Positions 6,089-33,198 of a stretch of 41,146 nt of DNA are shown here, piece after piece. Position 1 is the first letter of the stretch. Each line of letters opens with the position of its first letter. The notes under the pieces are model-generated. The model saw only the letters and a program-made list of their open reading frames with translations, had not been told where the DNA came from and did not search any database. The stretch comes from Thermoplasmata archaeon (lineage in GTDB: Archaea > Thermoplasmatota > Thermoplasmata > Lutacidiplasmatales > UBA184), in the NCBI GenBank assembly GCA_030037735.1, contig JASHQC010000009.1, forward strand, positions 1-41,146. The letters are read 5' to 3'. A program made the position numbers and the translations under genes.

Positions 6089-6661
6089 TCAACGAGCTTT
6101 TCCGGATCCAAGAGGTGTTTTCTCCGACCGCTCGAGCAGGTCCCGGAACGTCTCGAAAAACTTAAGGTAAGGATCCGTGCGTCGCCGATCCTCGAGGTCT
6201 AGGAGCGCGATCTCGTACAGGGCCTTGGCCTTGGCATCCCCTCTTTTCGCATGGACCAGATAGGTGCAGAGGAGTTGGTAGTTGGCGAGCACGATCGCCT
6301 CCGGCCGTGGCGTGCTCATCTCCCCCTTCCGCGGTCGATGGATCTGCTCGAGCGGGACCTTCTCCGCGACGGCCCGTCGATGGGAGAACCCGAAGAACCG
6401 GCCGGCCCCCAGCACCCGAGTCACTTCCTTCACACTGCCGCCGAACGAGTTGGTCAGGCGGTCGGTCTCGTGCCAGCACCATAGTCCGAAGCCGTAGTCC
6501 CCGGTGAGGTACTCCTTCCAGGCCTCTCCATACAACTGGGCTTCGCGTTCCTCCGGGGTGAGCTCCGCGGGCAGGTTGGCTCTCCAGTCGCCGAGGAAGG
6601 CGTCGATGCGCATCGTTGGCGAGAAGCTCCTGAACGCCGGAACCGGCGCGACCGCGCTCAT
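6089..6661 (-). CDS. hypothetical protein, 190 aa
   Basis: I do not recognise this family. The product is soluble and rich in aromatic and charged residues, with segments such as GDWRANLPAELTPEEREAQL, GLWCWHETDRLTNSFGG and RPEAIVLANYQLLCTYLVH. The C-terminus looks helical and charged (LDLEDRRRTDPYLKFFETF). The ATG at 6661 is preferred over an internal ATG (MRIDAF) 16 codons later because a TATA-like GCTTAAGC lies 34-41 nt upstream, overlapping the stop of the amidohydrolase gene. The frame itself is open further upstream with low-quality sequence. Close packing with truA and the amidohydrolase suggests co-expression, but the partners do not point to one pathway. Confidence 0.75.
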   Translation of the reverse strand: MSAVAPVPAFRSFSPTMRIDAFLGDWRANLPAELTPEEREAQLYGEAWKEYLTGDYGFGLWCWHETDRLTNSFGGSVKEVTRVLGAGRFFGFSHRRAVAEKVPLEQIHRPRKGEMSTPRPEAIVLANYQLLCTYLVHAKRGDAKAKALYEIALLDLEDRRRTDPYLKFFETFRDLLERSEKTPLGSGKAR

Positions 6662-6696
6662 CGACTCGATCCCTCCCCCATCCCAATCGCGCGGGC

Positions 6697-8256
6697 TTAA
6701 GCCGCTGGCGCGGGGAACGTTCTCCGCCCGCCCATCCAGGTTTCCACGACCGGAGGCCGTTCCGACGCGAGAGCACCGTCGAGCGACGTCGCCGAGGTCA
6801 CCACGAAGTCCGCTGGACTTCCGACCGCCAGCTGCCCGAGTCCGGGCTCCCCCAGGATGGGCCCGGCATTTCGAGTGTACAGCTGGAACGCCTCGATCGG
6901 AGCGAGCCGCTCGGAGGAGGTGAACCGCCCGAACTCCGATCTCGGAGCCCGGAAGACCGCCGCCCGAACGCCGGTCCACGGATCGAGGGGTTCGACCGGC
7001 GAATCGCTCGCGCCTCCCAATGGGAACCCGTGGTCCGTCAAGGTCCGGAAGGCGTACGTCCACCGAGCCCGGTCTTGACCCAACCGCTCGACGATCCACC
7101 GGTCCGTTTCAACGAAATGGGGCTGAACGACCAGATGGGGGCGAACCTTCTCCAGCGAGGACCATAGCGTAGGCGGAGTCATCGAGGCGTGCTCGATCCG
7201 CGGAGTGCCCGAGGTCTCCACTTTCGTTAACAAGTCGAGGACGCGGCTCACCGCCCGGTCCCCAATGGCGTGCAGCGCCGGAGGCAAGCCCAGTGACCTT
7301 GCCTGTTCGAGGGCTCGCACCAGGCTCTCATCGTCCCAGATCGGATACCCCGTCGTCTCGGGACGATCAGCATAGGGCGCGCTCAGCCACGCGGTCCGGG
7401 TCCCAAGGGCCCCGTCGGTGATTGCCTTGACTCCTGCGACTCGCCAGCCACCGCCACTCGGTGCTGTGGGAAGAGAGTGGTACCGATCGAGGCTCCGCAG
7501 GTCGAGGTAGAACCGGATTCGGACTGGTAGCCCGCTATCTGAGAGGGCGGCGACCACGTCCACCTCCTCCGGCGTCGCCAGGACCGGGCACAGGGTGGTC
7601 AACCCCATCGCGGCGGCGTTCCCTAGCAACCGTTGGAAGGCTGTGAGGTTCGTCCGGGCCCAGCTCCGGCTTGCGTCCGACGCGTTCAGGCGCGCAAGGG
7701 CCGAGTCGTACACCAAGCCGTTCAACCGGCCGGCCGAGTCCCGGCCGAATCGCCCCCCCGGAGGATCCGCGGAGGTCTCGTCGATCCCCAGCTCCGCGAG
7801 CGCCCTCGAGTTCAGCGCGGCGGCGTGCATGCTGACCTGGAAAAGGATCAGCGGTTGCTCCTCGGAGATCCGGTCGAGCTCGTCCCGAGTGGGTTCCCGA
7901 CGGTCGGCCCAGAGGGACGAGTCCCACCCCACGCCGACCAGCGGATGGGCGGAGTCCGGAGTCAGCCGGCTTCGAAGGCGGCTCGCGAACTCCTCCCTAC
8001 TCTGCGTACCACGCAGGTCGACGCCTTCCCGTTGAAGGACCGTGTCGGTAAGGTGCATGTGGAGGTCGATGAGCCCGGGCAGGACGAGATGGCCCCGGAG
8101 GTCCGCCACCTCGGTCTCGGACCCCTTCGCCCGACGCACGACGTCGTCCGACCCCACCGCCTGGACCTCTCCGTCCTCGACGAGGAATCCCTCGGCAAAA
8201 CCGTCGCCCGTGAACACCCGGCCGTTGATCCAGGCTCGGTCGACCGACGACCCCAT
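6697..8256 (-). CDS. YtcJ-like metal-dependent amidohydrolase
   Basis: The 519-residue protein belongs to the YtcJ/amidohydrolase-3 group: a beta-sandwich N-terminus (AWINGRVFTGDGFAEGFLVEDGEVQAVG), then a TIM barrel. Metal-site elements are present: DLHMHL (HxH) near residue 65, GVKAITDGALGTRTAW (likely carboxylated lysine), ALHAIGDRAV, PRIEHASM and GGASDSPVEPLDPW (catalytic Asp). The family hydrolyses amides of varied substrates (N-substituted formamides, amino-acid amides and others), so the substrate is open. The start at 8256 has a TATA-like element (GGATAAGC on the minus strand, 8279-8286) about 26 nt upstream. The gene lies 45 nt after glnA on the same strand; release of ammonia or an amine near glutamine synthetase would be consistent, but that is inference. 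Confidence 0.85.
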   Translation of the reverse strand: MGSSVDRAWINGRVFTGDGFAEGFLVEDGEVQAVGSDDVVRRAKGSETEVADLRGHLVLPGLIDLHMHLTDTVLQREGVDLRGTQSREEFASRLRSRLTPDSAHPLVGVGWDSSLWADRREPTRDELDRISEEQPLILFQVSMHAAALNSRALAELGIDETSADPPGGRFGRDSAGRLNGLVYDSALARLNASDASRSWARTNLTAFQRLLGNAAAMGLTTLCPVLATPEEVDVVAALSDSGLPVRIRFYLDLRSLDRYHSLPTAPSGGGWRVAGVKAITDGALGTRTAWLSAPYADRPETTGYPIWDDESLVRALEQARSLGLPPALHAIGDRAVSRVLDLLTKVETSGTPRIEHASMTPPTLWSSLEKVRPHLVVQPHFVETDRWIVERLGQDRARWTYAFRTLTDHGFPLGGASDSPVEPLDPWTGVRAAVFRAPRSEFGRFTSSERLAPIEAFQLYTRNAGPILGEPGLGQLAVGSPADFVVTSATSLDGALASERPPVVETWMGGRRTFPAPAA

Positions 8257-8301
8257 CGGCGGGGTCGACGGCGAGCGGGCTTATCCGCTCGCCCGCAGCG
8301 C

Positions 8302-9789
8302 TCAGACGTCCAGGTACCGGTAGAACTCGTATGGGTGAGGTCGCAGGTTGAGCTGCAATTGCTCCTCCATCTTGAGTTCCCGGTAGGTCTCGAGGAATGG
8401 GCCCGAGAAGACCGGGGACAGGAAGGCATGGTCCGACGCGAGGCAGTCCAGCGCCTCCCCCAGCGAGCCGGGCAGCTCCCGGATGTTGAGCGCCTTCCGC
8501 TGCTCGGGCGTGAGCTTGTAGATGTCGGTGTCGACGGGGTTGCCGGGGTCGATCTTGCGCTTGATGCCGTCCAGGCCGGCCATAGCGAGCGCGGCTTCGA
8601 CGAGGTAAATGTTCGCCGAAGAATCGGGAGTCCGGTACTCCAGGCGCTTGGCCCCGGGATGCCCTTTGAGATAGTACGGAATCCGCACGTTCGCGGAGCG
8701 GTTCGATTTGCTGTACGCGATGAAGACCGGCGCCTCGAACCCAGGCACGAGCCGGCGGTACGAGTTCGTGATGGGGTTCGTGATGGCACAGAGGGCCCGC
8801 GCATGCTCCAGTAGCCCCCCGATGTAGTACCGGCAGATCTGGCTGATCTCGGCGTACGGGTCGGAGGCGTCGTAAAAGACGTTCGTGCCCTGGGTCCATA
8901 GCGACTGATTCGTGTGGAGCCCTAGCCCGTTGTCGCCGAAGACCGGTTTCGGCATGAAGGTGGCCACCTTCCCGTGCTGCCGGGCCACGTTCTTGATGAC
9001 GAACCGGACATCCTGCACGTGGTCCGCGGTGGGAACGAGGTCGTCAAACCGGATGTTGATCTCGGCCTGGCCGGCGGTGCCCACCTCGTGATGGTGCGCA
9101 TCGATCCGGATGTGGAAATCATCCATCAGGATGTTGCACATCTCGCTCCGCAGGTCCTGGAGCTGATCGGCCGGCGCCGCCCGGTGATACCCCTCCTTGA
9201 ATCGGATTGAGCCGAAACCGTCCTGTTCTTGCCACGGCGCCTCGGAGCTGTTGATGAGATATCCGGAGCCACTCCAGGCGTCACGGACCCCGTCGGCCGA
9301 GGGGATCAATCGGACCCCGTCGAAGACGAAGAACTCGACCTCCGGCCCCCAGTAGGAATGATCGTACCCGGCCGCCTCGAGAACCTGGACGGCCTTGCGG
9401 GCGATGCCGCGCGGGTCTCGAGGGTAGGGGGTTCGGCTTCCGCCTTCCAATATGTCCGCGATGAATCGCGCGCTGCCCGAACCGGCGCTTCCCCAGGGAA
9501 GCGTGGCGAAGGTACTCGGGTCGGGGAGAAGGACCATGTCGGATTCGTAAATCTCCCGAAACCCCCGGACGGACGACCCGTCCAGCTTGGGGATCCCCGT
9601 CACGAAGGAGTCGGGTTCGAGCGCGTCAACGGGCAGATGGAGATGGTTGAAGCCACCAAGAATGTCGGTGTAGAAAATCTCCACCCAGCGGAGCTTCCGC
9701 GCCCGAAGGTCTTCGAGGACCTCCGCGCCGCGAGACTCTGTCATCGCCATCATCCCCCCGCTACCGCCTGACCTGACTGCTGCCGACAT
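8302..9789 (-). CDS. glnA: glutamine synthetase, type I
   Basis: It condenses glutamate and ammonia to glutamine using ATP. Signatures in order: LDGSSVRGFREIYESDMVLLPDP; GPEVEFFVFD (metal-binding glutamates); HHHEVGTAGQAEIN; KPVFGDNGLGLHTNQS (ATP/glutamate site); NSYRRLVPGFEAPVFIAYS; KRLEYRTPDSSAN; DGIKRKIDPGNPVD. The adenylylation-site sequence typical of GSI-beta is replaced by DIYKLTPEQ, so it looks like the shorter GSI-alpha type, not controlled by adenylylation. The first methionine of the frame (9867) lies inside the promoter; 9789 or the ATGs at 9753/9750 fit better, each with a G-rich stretch upstream. Residues before ESRGAEVLEDLRARKLRWVE are non-conserved, so the true start could be the later one. 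An Lrp regulator gene is divergent. Confidence 0.93.
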   Translation of the reverse strand: MSAAVRSGGSGGMMAMTESRGAEVLEDLRARKLRWVEIFYTDILGGFNHLHLPVDALEPDSFVTGIPKLDGSSVRGFREIYESDMVLLPDPSTFATLPWGSAGSGSARFIADILEGGSRTPYPRDPRGIARKAVQVLEAAGYDHSYWGPEVEFFVFDGVRLIPSADGVRDAWSGSGYLINSSEAPWQEQDGFGSIRFKEGYHRAAPADQLQDLRSEMCNILMDDFHIRIDAHHHEVGTAGQAEINIRFDDLVPTADHVQDVRFVIKNVARQHGKVATFMPKPVFGDNGLGLHTNQSLWTQGTNVFYDASDPYAEISQICRYYIGGLLEHARALCAITNPITNSYRRLVPGFEAPVFIAYSKSNRSANVRIPYYLKGHPGAKRLEYRTPDSSANIYLVEAALAMAGLDGIKRKIDPGNPVDTDIYKLTPEQRKALNIRELPGSLGEALDCLASDHAFLSPVFSGPFLETYRELKMEEQLQLNLRPHPYEFYRYLDV

Positions 9790-11313: not shown

Positions 11314-11398
11314 GCGGGGATCGCCCAGCCTGGTCAAAGGCGCCAGATTCAGGGTCTGGTCTCGTAGGAGTTCGTGGGTTCAAATCCCTCTCCCCGCA
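11314..11398 (+). tRNA. tRNA-Leu, anticodon CAG
   Basis: A perfect 7-bp acceptor stem (GCGGGGA/TCCCCGC) encloses a D arm (GCC...GGC with GG in the loop), a 5-bp anticodon stem CCAGA/TCTGG around loop TTCAGGG, and a long variable arm (TCTCGTAGGAGTTC) typical of type II leucine tRNAs. The T arm has the canonical TTCAAAT loop; its stem has one U-U mismatch. The discriminator is A, as usual for tRNA-Leu. CAG reads CUG, the preferred leucine codon here. No intron is evident. CC of the CCA end appears to be encoded by the following bases, but the A is not. Confidence 0.95.
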
Positions 11399-11500
11399 CC
11401 TGAACTGCTTGGGTCCTCCGCGCCCCCGATTCATCCGGAAGCACCAATCCTCGTGCGGCCCCGACCACGCAAGGGAGGGGGCCACGCGCCACCTTTCGCC

Positions 11501-11525
11501 CATAGTCCTACATAGTCTCATATAG
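11501..11525 (+). promoter_or_regulatory. tandem CATAGTC repeats overlapping the toxin-antitoxin promoter
   Basis: CATAGTC occurs at 11501-11507 and 11511-11517 (10-bp period) and is followed by CATATAG at 11519-11525, which serves as the TATA box 25 nt before the antitoxin ATG at 11547. This arrangement suits autorepression by the antitoxin or the toxin-antitoxin complex. Confidence 0.55.
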
Positions 11526-11546
11526 CGACTTCTGGTACCATTTCCG

Positions 11547-11738
11547 ATGGCGATAACGACCATCCAGCTCTCTCCGGAGACTCGAGAGCACCTTCGGGCG
11601 GTGGGACGTAAGGGAGAGACCTACGACCAGATAGTTCGGCGTCTCCTGAAGTCCGCCGAGTACTCAGACTTCATGGAGGAGCAGTACGAGATCCTTCGTC
11701 GCGCGAAGCATTGGGTCCGGCTCGGGCGTTCGACGTGA
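11547..11738 (+). CDS. antitoxin-like small protein of a RelE-type TA pair
   Basis: The 63-residue protein begins with TTIQLSPETREHLRAVGRKGETYDQIVRRLL, a ribbon-helix-helix-like DNA-binding segment of the kind found in archaeal antitoxins next to RelE toxins (DUF7557-like). The C-terminal half (FMEEQYEILRRAKHWVRLG) is a charged helix that probably wraps the toxin. The ATG at 11547 is 25 nt downstream of a TATA box, so the transcript is likely leaderless. Its stop overlaps the toxin start in a GTGA, a hallmark of translational coupling. Confidence 0.8.
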   Translation: MAITTIQLSPETREHLRAVGRKGETYDQIVRRLLKSAEYSDFMEEQYEILRRAKHWVRLGRST

Positions 11739-11998
11739 TTCGAGGGGTACTTCTCTCGGAGCGAGCGGACCGTTTTCTTCGCGGCCTCCCGCGGGACGTT
11801 CATGACCGGGTCCGAACGGCCCTGTTGGAGTTTGCCCGCTCCGGTCGGGGGGACCTCAAGCGACTCAGCGGTACCAAGGGCCGCGACGACCTCTTCCGAT
11901 TGCGGGTGGGCGATTATCGGATAGTGTTCGCGCTCACGAGCACCGAGATCCGGGTCACTCGTATCATCCATCGCAGCGAAGGCTACGACTGGCTTTAG
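11735..11998 (+). CDS. RelE/ParE-family toxin
   Basis: The 87-residue protein has the RelE fold signature: VLLSERADRFLRGLPRDVHDRVRTALLEFAR, then LKRLSGTKGRDDLFRLRVGDYRIVFALTSTEIRVTRIIHRSEGYDW. The basic cluster and the RLRVGDYRI strand with a C-terminal R-x4-Y fit ribosome-dependent mRNA endonucleases of the RelE type; ParE (gyrase inhibitor) is the alternative. The start is the GTG at 11735, overlapping the antitoxin stop; an upstream in-frame ATG lies inside the antitoxin gene. The pair sits directly after a tRNA gene, a common position for small accessory modules. Confidence 0.87.
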   Translation: MIRGVLLSERADRFLRGLPRDVHDRVRTALLEFARSGRGDLKRLSGTKGRDDLFRLRVGDYRIVFALTSTEIRVTRIIHRSEGYDWL

Positions 11999-30178: not shown

Positions 30179-30532
30179 ATGGAACCTTCCGAAGCCCTCT
30201 CAACGTCATCGAGACAACCCGTTCCCGCCGAACCACTTCGTTGGCTCGACGAGACGACCCTCGCCTTTCCCGGGGACCTGGACACCGATTCCCGGGTCGA
30301 GTACGTAGGTCGGGTCCGGGTGCCGATCGCCGGACCGTACCGCCCGTGGGCCCGGTTGTACCGTCTCCCGGACCTCCGGCGCGTGTGGGTCGTCCGGCTC
30401 TGGGACCGGCAATGCGCCGTGCGACGGATGACATCGACAGCAATCTTGCTCGAGTTCGCCCGGCTGAACCGGTTTCCCGCGCTGGCGGCCAGGGTCCGGT
30501 GGTTGGATCGACTCGGCCGGAGCGACCGGTGA
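30179..30532 (+). CDS. 117-aa unknown, coupled to the HerA-like ATPase
   Basis: I do not recognise this family. After a disordered 20-residue start the protein reads LRWLDETTLAFPGDLDTDSRVEYVGRVRVPIAG, then ARLYRLPDLRRVWVVRLWD, then a basic helical end (ILLEFARLNRFPALAARVRWLDRL). It is basic, with no membrane helix or signal peptide. The ATG at 30179 has GGAGGT about 15 nt upstream. The stop TGA overlaps the GTG of the ATPase gene (GTGA), so the two proteins are made together and probably act together, for example as an adaptor or DNA-binding partner. That function is inference from coupling only. Confidence 0.65.
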   Translation: MEPSEALSTSSRQPVPAEPLRWLDETTLAFPGDLDTDSRVEYVGRVRVPIAGPYRPWARLYRLPDLRRVWVVRLWDRQCAVRRMTSTAILLEFARLNRFPALAARVRWLDRLGRSDR

Positions 30533-33198
30533 CGAGGGCCTCGCCGGGCCTTGTGCCCGCCTTTCGGCTAGATGCCGGGGCCGGGACCCACTGGCTAACG
30601 GTCTTCCTTGCTCGGCTGGCTGAGCGACTCCGCTCCGTTTCGTCGGGGGAGGCGCTACTCATCGAGCAATGGTGGGACGGGCACGCGGGAGAGGTGCATC
30701 TTCTCCCGTACTCCGAGCGGCTCGTCCTCGCAATGGAAGCCGTTCGCGAGGGCATCCCTCTGCCCTGGACGCGGAGTTTCCGGAACCGTGCCTGCGCGCC
30801 GCCGCCCGGACTTCTCGAAGGATGGATCTGGGTTGTTCCGCCTGTGCCGTCCGACATCACGCTCGATCCCTACGATGCGTCTCTCTCGTCCCCTGTACCG
30901 GGGGGTCGATCGACGGAACCTTCGGACCCCCGGCCCTCCCCCGATGCGGTGACGTCCGACGACCTCCTCTCCTCCGAGAGTCCTTACTGGGTTGGCTTGC
31001 AGACCCACTGGACCACCGGCTCCGACGGAGAGGTGTGGGCATCCGCCCGGGGTCGGATTGCCGCGGCGACCCCCGCCGCGCTCCAGGCGCTCGGGTCGGC
31101 GCTGGAGGATCGGCTACGCCACGTAGCCCGATGGCCGGCAGAGTCCCGGCTAATCGTGCGGGCCGTTCGTCCGAGACGTCGTCTTTCGCGGGCTTGGGCC
31201 TCGGGCGCCCGCCCGCGTTGGTGGACGCCCCGGGCGCAGCGACTCCAGGCGGATCGGGTTGCCCTAGCGGTTCCCCTCCCCCTCGGCCCGGACCCACACG
31301 ACGACCCGCGCCTCCGACACGCCGTGGTGCTAGGAGCCTCCGGCTCCGGTAAGACCGCCGCCCTCGCTCACTTCGCTCGGGAGGCGCTCGCGGAGCGTCG
31401 GTCGGTGGTCCTCTTCGACGTGCACGGGGACCTAGCACCCCGGGTCACGGCCGGGCTTCCGTCCGCGATCCGGGAGCGCGTCATCGGCATCGATGTCGTG
31501 GGCCGCCCCACCGCCGTTCCCGGTCTCTCGGTCCTGGGCCCGGTCACCATCGGCGACCGGGACGCGCTGGTGGCCCATCTCGTGGCCGCTTTCAAGCGGC
31601 TATCGACGGAGAACGGGGAGACGTTTTGGGGGTTCCGCCTCGAGCGGCTGTTCGAGACGTTCCTTCACCTCGTCCAAGAACAGGGAGGGGACCTCGTCGA
31701 CCTGTGGAGCCTACTCACTGACCCTCGGCGACGGGACGCGGCCCGGCTCACGACGGAGCGCCCCGAGGCCGCGCAGTTCCTCGAGGAGTTGGACGGGATC
31801 GTGCGCCGGCAACCGGATTTCCTTTGGCCGGCCGCCTCGCGCGTCGCGAAGGTCGTCGGCTCGCCGCTTCTCACCGCGCTGCTCGCGCCGCACGACCGAC
31901 CACTGGAGGTCGGAGCTCGTCTCAGCGAGGGGGACTCGGCGATCTGGCGCCTGCCGATGGGCGAGCTCGGGCCGGAGGGGGTCACGTTCACCGTGACGCT
32001 TCTCCTGACCCGGGTGTACCTGGAGCAAGTCCGGCGCGCCGCGCGGGAGGGGCTAGCCCAGGACCTTCGAGTGCTGTTTGTGCTGGACGAGGCCCATCTC
32101 TTCCCGGCCCGTCTCTTGAGCGAGATCGTCGCTGAGGGACGCAAGTTCGGCCTCGGTCTGGTCGTCGCGACGCAATACCCGGCCCGGCTGGCACCGGAGT
32201 TGCGAGACGCGCTCGCCGGCGCGGCGGGTACCGTCTTCCTCTTCCGAGTGCCCTGGGCGTCGGCGGTCGCGACCGGGGCCTGGGCCGGGCTCGGCCCTGA
32301 CGCGGCGCAGAGGGTTCTGCCGACGCTCTCGCCGGGCTGGGCCCTCGTGAGTACCACCGGTCCTCACGCGGCGCGCCAGCTCATTCCGATGCCGCTCGGT
32401 CTTCCCGCGGACCTACCGGGCTGGCAGAAGCTGGTGCGTCGGTCCGCCGACCGGTTCGGTTCTCCGGTGCCGTACCGAGAGGGAGCGGCCGCCCGGTCCT
32501 ACGAATCCCTCGAGGAGGAGATCCTTCTCGGACTGGTCGGCCTCGACGCAGAGGGCGGGACCATCACCCGCGCCCGGCTATTCCGTTGGCTCGACACCGA
32601 CGACCCGTTCGATCCGGTCGCCGGCCTCCAAGCGCTCGAGAGGCTCCAGCGACGCGGCTGGGTCCGGGTGAACGGCGAGGAGATCCTCCTCTCGGCGGCC
32701 GGTGCCGACCGGGTCGGGCTCGCGGCTCGGACTGGAGCGCGGCCGGAGAGCGTCGAACATCGCGCCCTGCTCGTCGCGGCCGTGCGCATCTTCGCACGGC
32801 ACCACGAGCGGCTCGAGGTGCTTCGTCAGGGCCGATTCGACACCCGGCTTCCTGATGGCCTCGTTCCCGTCCTTCCCCGGGAACACCGAGGCTGGGGGCC
32901 GGCGCAGCTCGCGGCCTATCTGGACCGTCGGCGGGAGGAATGGCTGTGGCGCGCCTTCGGGGGGCGGAACGTGCACGTGGAGGCAGAAGTGTCGGGCGCC
33001 ACCCGGCGAGAGCGAATCGAACGCGACTGGGCGAAGGCCCGCGACGCAGGGGCGTTCCTCCTCTGTCTCGTAGCCGACGCCGGCCGGGCCCGGTCCATCC
33101 GCCGGTTCCTCCTTCGGGCCAACGTTCCACGGACCCGCGCAACGGTCTGGACGCTCCGGTCGGCCCGGGAGATTGCTGAGCCCCCTTCCTCAACGTGA
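30529..33198 (+). CDS. HerA/VirB4-like ATPase with C-terminal winged-helix and PD-(D/E)xK-like segments
   Basis: The 889-residue protein has an N-terminal region of about 240 residues without a known motif. A HerA-FtsK-type ATPase follows: Walker A GASGSGKT at residues 269-276, FDVHGD shortly after, Walker B VLFVLDEAH at 515-523 and a sensor strand VVATQYP near 549, as in DNA-translocating or conjugation ATPases. Residues about 650-720 look like a winged helix (LEEEILLGLVGL ... LERLQRRGWVRVNGEEILLS). The C-terminus has RLPDG (D776) and VHVEAEVSG (E818, E820) followed by basic helices, the layout of PD-(D/E)xK nucleases fused to mobile-element proteins. The GTG at 30529 overlaps the upstream stop; earlier in-frame starts lie inside the 117-aa gene. 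No relaxase, integrase or pilus gene is visible. Confidence 0.75.
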   Translation: MTRASPGLVPAFRLDAGAGTHWLTVFLARLAERLRSVSSGEALLIEQWWDGHAGEVHLLPYSERLVLAMEAVREGIPLPWTRSFRNRACAPPPGLLEGWIWVVPPVPSDITLDPYDASLSSPVPGGRSTEPSDPRPSPDAVTSDDLLSSESPYWVGLQTHWTTGSDGEVWASARGRIAAATPAALQALGSALEDRLRHVARWPAESRLIVRAVRPRRRLSRAWASGARPRWWTPRAQRLQADRVALAVPLPLGPDPHDDPRLRHAVVLGASGSGKTAALAHFAREALAERRSVVLFDVHGDLAPRVTAGLPSAIRERVIGIDVVGRPTAVPGLSVLGPVTIGDRDALVAHLVAAFKRLSTENGETFWGFRLERLFETFLHLVQEQGGDLVDLWSLLTDPRRRDAARLTTERPEAAQFLEELDGIVRRQPDFLWPAASRVAKVVGSPLLTALLAPHDRPLEVGARLSEGDSAIWRLPMGELGPEGVTFTVTLLLTRVYLEQVRRAAREGLAQDLRVLFVLDEAHLFPARLLSEIVAEGRKFGLGLVVATQYPARLAPELRDALAGAAGTVFLFRVPWASAVATGAWAGLGPDAAQRVLPTLSPGWALVSTTGPHAARQLIPMPLGLPADLPGWQKLVRRSADRFGSPVPYREGAAARSYESLEEEILLGLVGLDAEGGTITRARLFRWLDTDDPFDPVAGLQALERLQRRGWVRVNGEEILLSAAGADRVGLAARTGARPESVEHRALLVAAVRIFARHHERLEVLRQGRFDTRLPDGLVPVLPREHRGWGPAQLAAYLDRRREEWLWRAFGGRNVHVEAEVSGATRRERIERDWAKARDAGAFLLCLVADAGRARSIRRFLLRANVPRTRATVWTLRSAREIAEPPSST

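Follow-up and report, generated by a model that had tools for sequence, protein, structure and literature searches.

A near-core gene of the archaeal order Lutacidiplasmatales encodes a VirD4/HerA-type ATPase joined to a nuclease-like domain

The 889-residue protein described here joins a VirD4/HerA-type ATPase to a winged helix and a nuclease-like domain, and its gene is best read as a vertically inherited, near-core, chromosomal gene of the host. We give a probability of about 0.5 to the reading that the Lutacidiplasmatales encode in it a DNA-processing translocase of their own, with pump and nuclease in one chain. The window, by which we mean the whole 41,146-nt stretch of DNA that was analyzed, is contig C8 of a 1.77-Mb genome (112 contigs, 85% complete), and it contains the following features.

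30179..30532, plus strand: 117-aa upstream partner; core residues 41-116 predicted as beta4-alpha2, no known family
30529..33198, plus strand: 889-aa VirD4/HerA-type ATPase with winged helix and nuclease-like domain; GTG start
30529..31248, plus strand: N-terminal region, residues 1-240; poorly conserved, with invariant E46, Q158 and R174
31333..31356, plus strand: Walker A GASGSGKT, residues 269-276; from sequence and ortholog alignment
32071..32091, plus strand: Walker B, residues 515-521; D520 and E521 invariant
32140..32175, plus strand: R538-K539 (candidate arginine finger) to sensor Q549; from ortholog alignment
32500..32712, plus strand: predicted winged-helix domain, residues ~658-728; AF2 model, Foldseek matches to wHTH proteins
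32752..33156, plus strand: nuclease-like domain, residues ~742-876; invariant residues and AF2 model
32854..32856, plus strand: D776 codon
32980..32988, plus strand: E818-x-E820 codons
33195..33782, plus strand: ThpR-like 2'-5' RNA ligase/cyclic phosphodiesterase, the usual third gene; Pfam LigT_PEase 7e-17

The original prediction had described a two-gene unit, and both ORFs, the motifs and the 4-nt overlap between the stop of the 117-aa gene and the GTG start of the 889-aa gene (common GTGA) were found at the predicted positions. Gene calls were made with a home-made caller on GC-rich DNA, and alternative starts of the ATPase were obtained at 30412 from the gene caller and at a TTG at 30241 in the ORF lists, the latter giving 985 aa. 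In genomes G005, G003 and G029 the orthologue likewise begins within a 4-nt overlap; such an overlap marks the start of the pair of orthologues most similar to the window protein (69% and 59% identity), indicating that the start at 30529 is right. Since the ThpR-like gene in turn overlaps the ATPase stop in the window, the unit consists of three genes; across the surveyed loci ThpR lies 9-41 nt downstream of the ATPase or overlaps it, and it directly follows the ATPase in about 20 loci of the family. The coupled pair of the original prediction therefore stands, but the unit usually has ThpR as a third member. An apparent ATPase-ThpR fusion in G009 was rejected as an out-of-frame reading past a frameshift. 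Of the window ORFs scanned, none could be recognised as an integrase, a relaxase or a pilus gene, in agreement with what had been noticed earlier. Elsewhere in the window (11314-11998), a tRNA-Leu (11314-11400) is followed by two small overlapping ORFs of 63 and 95 aa that by eye resemble a toxin-antitoxin pair, the second protein being RelE-like.

The 117-aa protein had been predicted to be a private partner of the ATPase, and about three quarters of the examined loci have it upstream of the ATPase gene; it gave no significant family match and no fold match. An alignment of 40 upstream proteins showed a conserved core of about 75 residues behind a variable N-terminal tail, and the predicted fold of this core had a pLDDT of ~84-98 per block over residues 41-117. 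In genus g4 (loci L049, L050, L051 and L059) a different small ORF takes the place of the partner with the same 4-nt overlap with the ATPase start, and in three of these four loci its core resembles RLSLLVRIGS.LVLRYPL.

Walker A, Walker B, a candidate arginine finger upstream of strand 4 and the glutamine sensor are all present in the 889-aa protein, placing it in the VirD4-like branch of the HerA/FtsK superfamily; the pair of arginine and glutamine belongs to the features given for the HerA/FtsK clade (PMC10853773). In 25 orthologues, down to 28% identity, G269, G272, G274, K275, D520-E521, R538-K539 and Q549 are invariant, with a few positions of Walker A varying conservatively, and D776, E818 and E820 of the C-terminal domain are invariant across the same set; this invariance is far beyond chance. 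The two Walker motifs and the sensor glutamine of the original prediction were thereby confirmed. When the protein was searched against Pfam, TrwB_AAD_bind (PF10412; 1.4e-7) and DUF87 scored over their cut-offs, HerA_C also matched, and no match fell outside the ATPase. The best domain match was the VirD4/TrwB coupling-protein ATPase, followed by HerA, and a profile search of solved structures returned HerA-type and TrwB proteins as relatives. The protein had been called HerA/VirB4-like; its P-loop core is complete, but the VirB4 label does not hold, the family being closer to VirD4/TrwB (PF10412 matches 24 of the 25 orthologues). No NCBIfam model reached its cut-off: CedD, the best name (3.5e-8, far below its cut-off), and the HerA models scored ~23-33 bits against cut-offs of 600-970, with the canonical HerA equivalogs NF040819 and NF040937 at 26-29 bits against 970 and 800.

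For the region behind the ATPase, AlphaFold2 was run on an alignment of 47 homologues, yielding a model of residues 640-889 with a mean pLDDT of 89.7. The winged-helix-like stretch noticed earlier was supported by this model (model residues 19-89) and by the Foldseek matches to wHTH proteins, and after it come a helix and strands, then a helical insertion, the strand that carries ExE, a helix, a strand, a helix and a strand. This modelled order is compatible with the alpha-beta-beta-beta-alpha-beta core of PD-(D/E)xK nucleases, in which D would lie at strand 2 and ExE, replacing ExK, in strand 3. The last 250 columns of the alignment include 18 invariant ones, and E740, H744, Q767-G768, P775-D776, E818, E820, R829 and K836 do not vary in the 47 homologues. 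The predicted pattern D776 ... E818-x-E820 is thus present and fixed, and with it the D ... (D/E)x(K/E) pattern of PD-(D/E)xK proteins; the ExE motif is without the usual lysine, and K836, invariant in the same 47 rows, sits in the next helix. BamHI is a known ExE case among PD-(D/E)xK nucleases. A Foldseek search of the 640-889 model against PDB and BFVD, whose result is dominated by the winged helix, gave mostly winged-helix matches; a few phage endonucleases matched weakly and no nuclease significantly, and the C-terminal domain was recognised neither by Pfam nor by PDB sequence profiles. As to the restriction-endonuclease fold that had been expected, the predicted order is compatible with it, while Pfam, PDB-sequence and Foldseek searches brought no confirmation. 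Because the residues are strongly constrained and the predicted fold is compatible, we call the domain nuclease-like and regard it as a putative nuclease, and the earlier view that pump and nuclease-like domain share one chain is supported. A Replic_Relax (PF13814) identity for the C-terminus, considered because of the motif of that family, was rejected, as there was no Pfam match in the orthologues or at their places in 61 relatives.

The 70 loci found in GTDB genomes carry the labels Thermoplasmata or Euryarchaeota, one being labeled only 'bacterium', and many of the MAG names among them are those of Lutacidiplasmatales genomes from acid soils (PMC9287336). When the 103 genomes of the family (Lutacidiplasmatales) were searched, 88 gave a match, which in nine of them was the paralogue only; with orthologues separated from the paralogue by score, a true orthologue is present in ~79 of the 103 genomes and, paralogue-only matches again left out, in ~31 of the 36 most complete ones. 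The surveyed genomes are incomplete MAGs, and the gene is missing from about five members of the family whose genomes are fairly complete. Orthologues are mostly single-copy. The order HxlR regulator, 117-aa gene, ATPase, ThpR, surface protein and glyA is kept in ~12 genomes, with genes for a sarcosine-oxidase-like protein, an FAD oxidoreductase and a DUF4147 protein further upstream in the conserved neighborhood; in other genera the flanks differ, and the partner overlap, ATPase and ThpR often stay together. The identity of orthologues tracks that of the chromosomal HerA (Spearman 0.82, n=24), and in the ATPase tree the orthologues of the family form one group (support 91/91). No relative was found in the viral contigs of IMG/VR, and plasmids yielded no orthologue, the two matches obtained there being distant coupling proteins.

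Other Thermoplasmata also have a VirD4/HerA-like ATPase that is followed by this Q..PD..ExE..K domain, namely f11 (hhalign 94%, 1.8e-7), f19 (hhalign 69%, 4e-5) and f27, the family labels being those of the tool. The f19 relatives, probably Thermoplasmataceae to judge from genome size, GC and archaellum genes, are chromosomal, and by eye their neighbors are archaellum or citrate-synthase-like genes. Element-borne relatives occur in genera of the family to which the window belongs; they are VirD4-like ATPases of ~1,150 aa that adjoin a T4SS pilin, a VirB4-like ATPase and a VirB6-like protein with five TM segments, and whose Q..PDG..ExE..K domain aligns with that of the window family (hhalign probability 97%, E 4e-10). 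Loci L136-L143 are elements of conjugative type. Besides the VirD4-nuclease fusion they carry VirB4, a T4SS pilin, the five-TM protein and an ORF that looks integrase-like but matches no Pfam model; among the genes examined there, none is a relaxase. In L060 of family f3 (6607-9149, genome G038) the relative is split between D and ExE into ORFs of 737 and 95 aa, either through a frameshift or as a true two-gene arrangement. The ATPases of f31 and f5, which matched weakly, were rejected, since they are truncated or have no nuclease-like domain. The window genome itself has, besides the class-wide HerA, another VirD4/HerA-like ATPase, 834 aa long and lacking the nuclease domain (locus L145, contig C90, 7139-9643), which by eye adjoins KaiC-like genes and a Drg-type GTPase and is present across the family.

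In the Lutacidiplasmatales (f1), NurA was found neither in 25 genomes with the Pfam profile nor in 61 genomes with a class profile (A6), and searches for the NurA-linked HerA gave only matches of ~1e-41 to the other HerA, leaving a gap that an end-processing enzyme of the fused kind could fill. The class profile is insensitive and missed the NurAs of f19, so the claims of NurA absence rest mainly on the Pfam profile, which scored over its cut-off in 26 of 31 f19 genomes. Replacement of NurA was therefore rejected as a general explanation: the apparent mutual exclusivity of fused ATPase and NurA in a 300-genome sample of the class is an artefact for f19, and since f19 has both, the fused protein does not merely substitute for NurA; within the family of the window the exclusivity may hold. 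A search for Mre11 with one sequence found it in f19 only, and f2, which has NurA, was negative too.

The original prediction inferred a DNA-processing, defence or plasmid-restriction module. That the protein is a restriction machine of the HerA/FtsK-capture type which acts by itself against plasmids or viruses appears unlikely. The PADLOC HerA and mad8 models match the ATPase, sequences diverge fast (in other genera, identity to the window protein is mostly 36-46%), and DndH likewise fuses a restriction-type nuclease to HerA/FtsK (PMC10853773); in DndH, however, the HerA/FtsK domain is at the C-terminus, whereas the nuclease-like domain here is C-terminal to the pump, and the window gene is without dnd or modification neighbors and fixed rather than patchy. 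Furthermore, PADLOC matched none of ten other window proteins, immediate neighbors included, and a gene that is near-core, mostly single-copy, in housekeeping synteny, tracking its host and without viral or plasmid orthologue does not support such a module. Host DNA processing is likelier. Still less probable is a C-terminal domain that has no nuclease activity and serves for DNA binding or as a structural module, in a protein whose work is confined to moving DNA, for instance during chromosome segregation. The domain belongs to no recognised nuclease family and the ATPase has distant FtsK-like matches, but the invariance of its motif residues in 47 sequences and the retention of D/E/E/K in f19, f11, f27 and the element-borne relatives are hard to explain without catalysis.

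It is also doubtful, at much the same level as the restriction machine, that the protein is a conjugation coupling protein domesticated to prepare chromosomal DNA and pump it from cell to cell in the manner of Ced/Ted, its own nuclease replacing the relaxase and producing the strand to be transferred. TrwB/VirD4 is its best family, sharing the P-loop core and motifs, the distant homologues with the same domain are VirD4-like ATPases of T4SS-type elements, and archaeal conjugative plasmids lack a recognised relaxase (PMC9905601). Ced/Ted import likewise uses domesticated, conjugation-derived HerA/VirB4-like ATPases (PMC9905601, PMC11868833); no CedA/CedA1-like membrane genes were recognised near the window gene, though, and CedB and CedD have no described nuclease domain. 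In contrast to VirD4/TrwB, the window gene is chromosomal and its product carries the additional wHTH and nuclease-like domains without a transmembrane segment (maximum 19-residue hydropathy 1.34). No VirB4, channel or pilin gene was found around the orthologues, which bears out the earlier reading that the gene stands outside any conjugative element, and the tree does not put the family's genes within the element group. Not every homologue sits in a conjugative element, then, although some distant ones do. A broader scenario can be offered only tentatively: VirD4-type ATPase-nuclease fusions might be the DNA-processing enzymes that replace the absent relaxase when Thermoplasmata conjugate, host lineages having domesticated them for DNA exchange or break processing.

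We return to a host-encoded DNA-processing translocase. A pump and nuclease-like domain in one chain, strong constraint and a fixed host operon speak for routine processing of DNA and against a mobile cassette for defence. The ATPase, which presumably forms a hexameric ring, would pump duplex DNA, the winged helix would bind DNA, and the attached PD-(D/E)xK-like domain, if active, would cut or resect the DNA as it emerges, so that a single chain may act as HerA-NurA does in end processing. The 117-aa protein would be made in step through overlapping translation and is probably a loader, adaptor or regulator. We infer either DNA-end processing or DNA exchange as the function. The pumps of HerA-NurA (PMC8708640) and TdtA-NurA (PMC5365140) feed DNA to, or work with, a nuclease. 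The window protein shares with HerA-NurA a HerA-clade pump with its Walker, arginine and glutamine features that would work with a nuclease, and it differs in being one chain, in having no mre11/rad50 neighbors, in a genome that holds a separate HerA, and in a nuclease domain unlike NurA, which has an RNase H fold (PMC9905601). In Thermus ICETh1 an FtsK-HerA pump, TdtA, and a NurA-like nuclease are both needed for efficient DNA donation (PMC5365140); these are two proteins in a mobile element, whereas the window's are fused and chromosomal.

Pump-nuclease pairs elsewhere act in end resection, defence and DNA donation, usually as two proteins, and here one chain appears to hold both. The fused protein is a near-core gene of an uncultivated order of acid-soil archaea, and it has its nuclease-like domain in common with the coupling proteins of conjugative-type elements in archaea, which have no known relaxase. 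These element-borne relatives suggest a relaxase-free way in which archaea might cut the DNA to be transferred, and they provide a concrete protein and residues with which this cutting may be probed, the relatives in f19, a family that is probably cultivated, being usable for that purpose.
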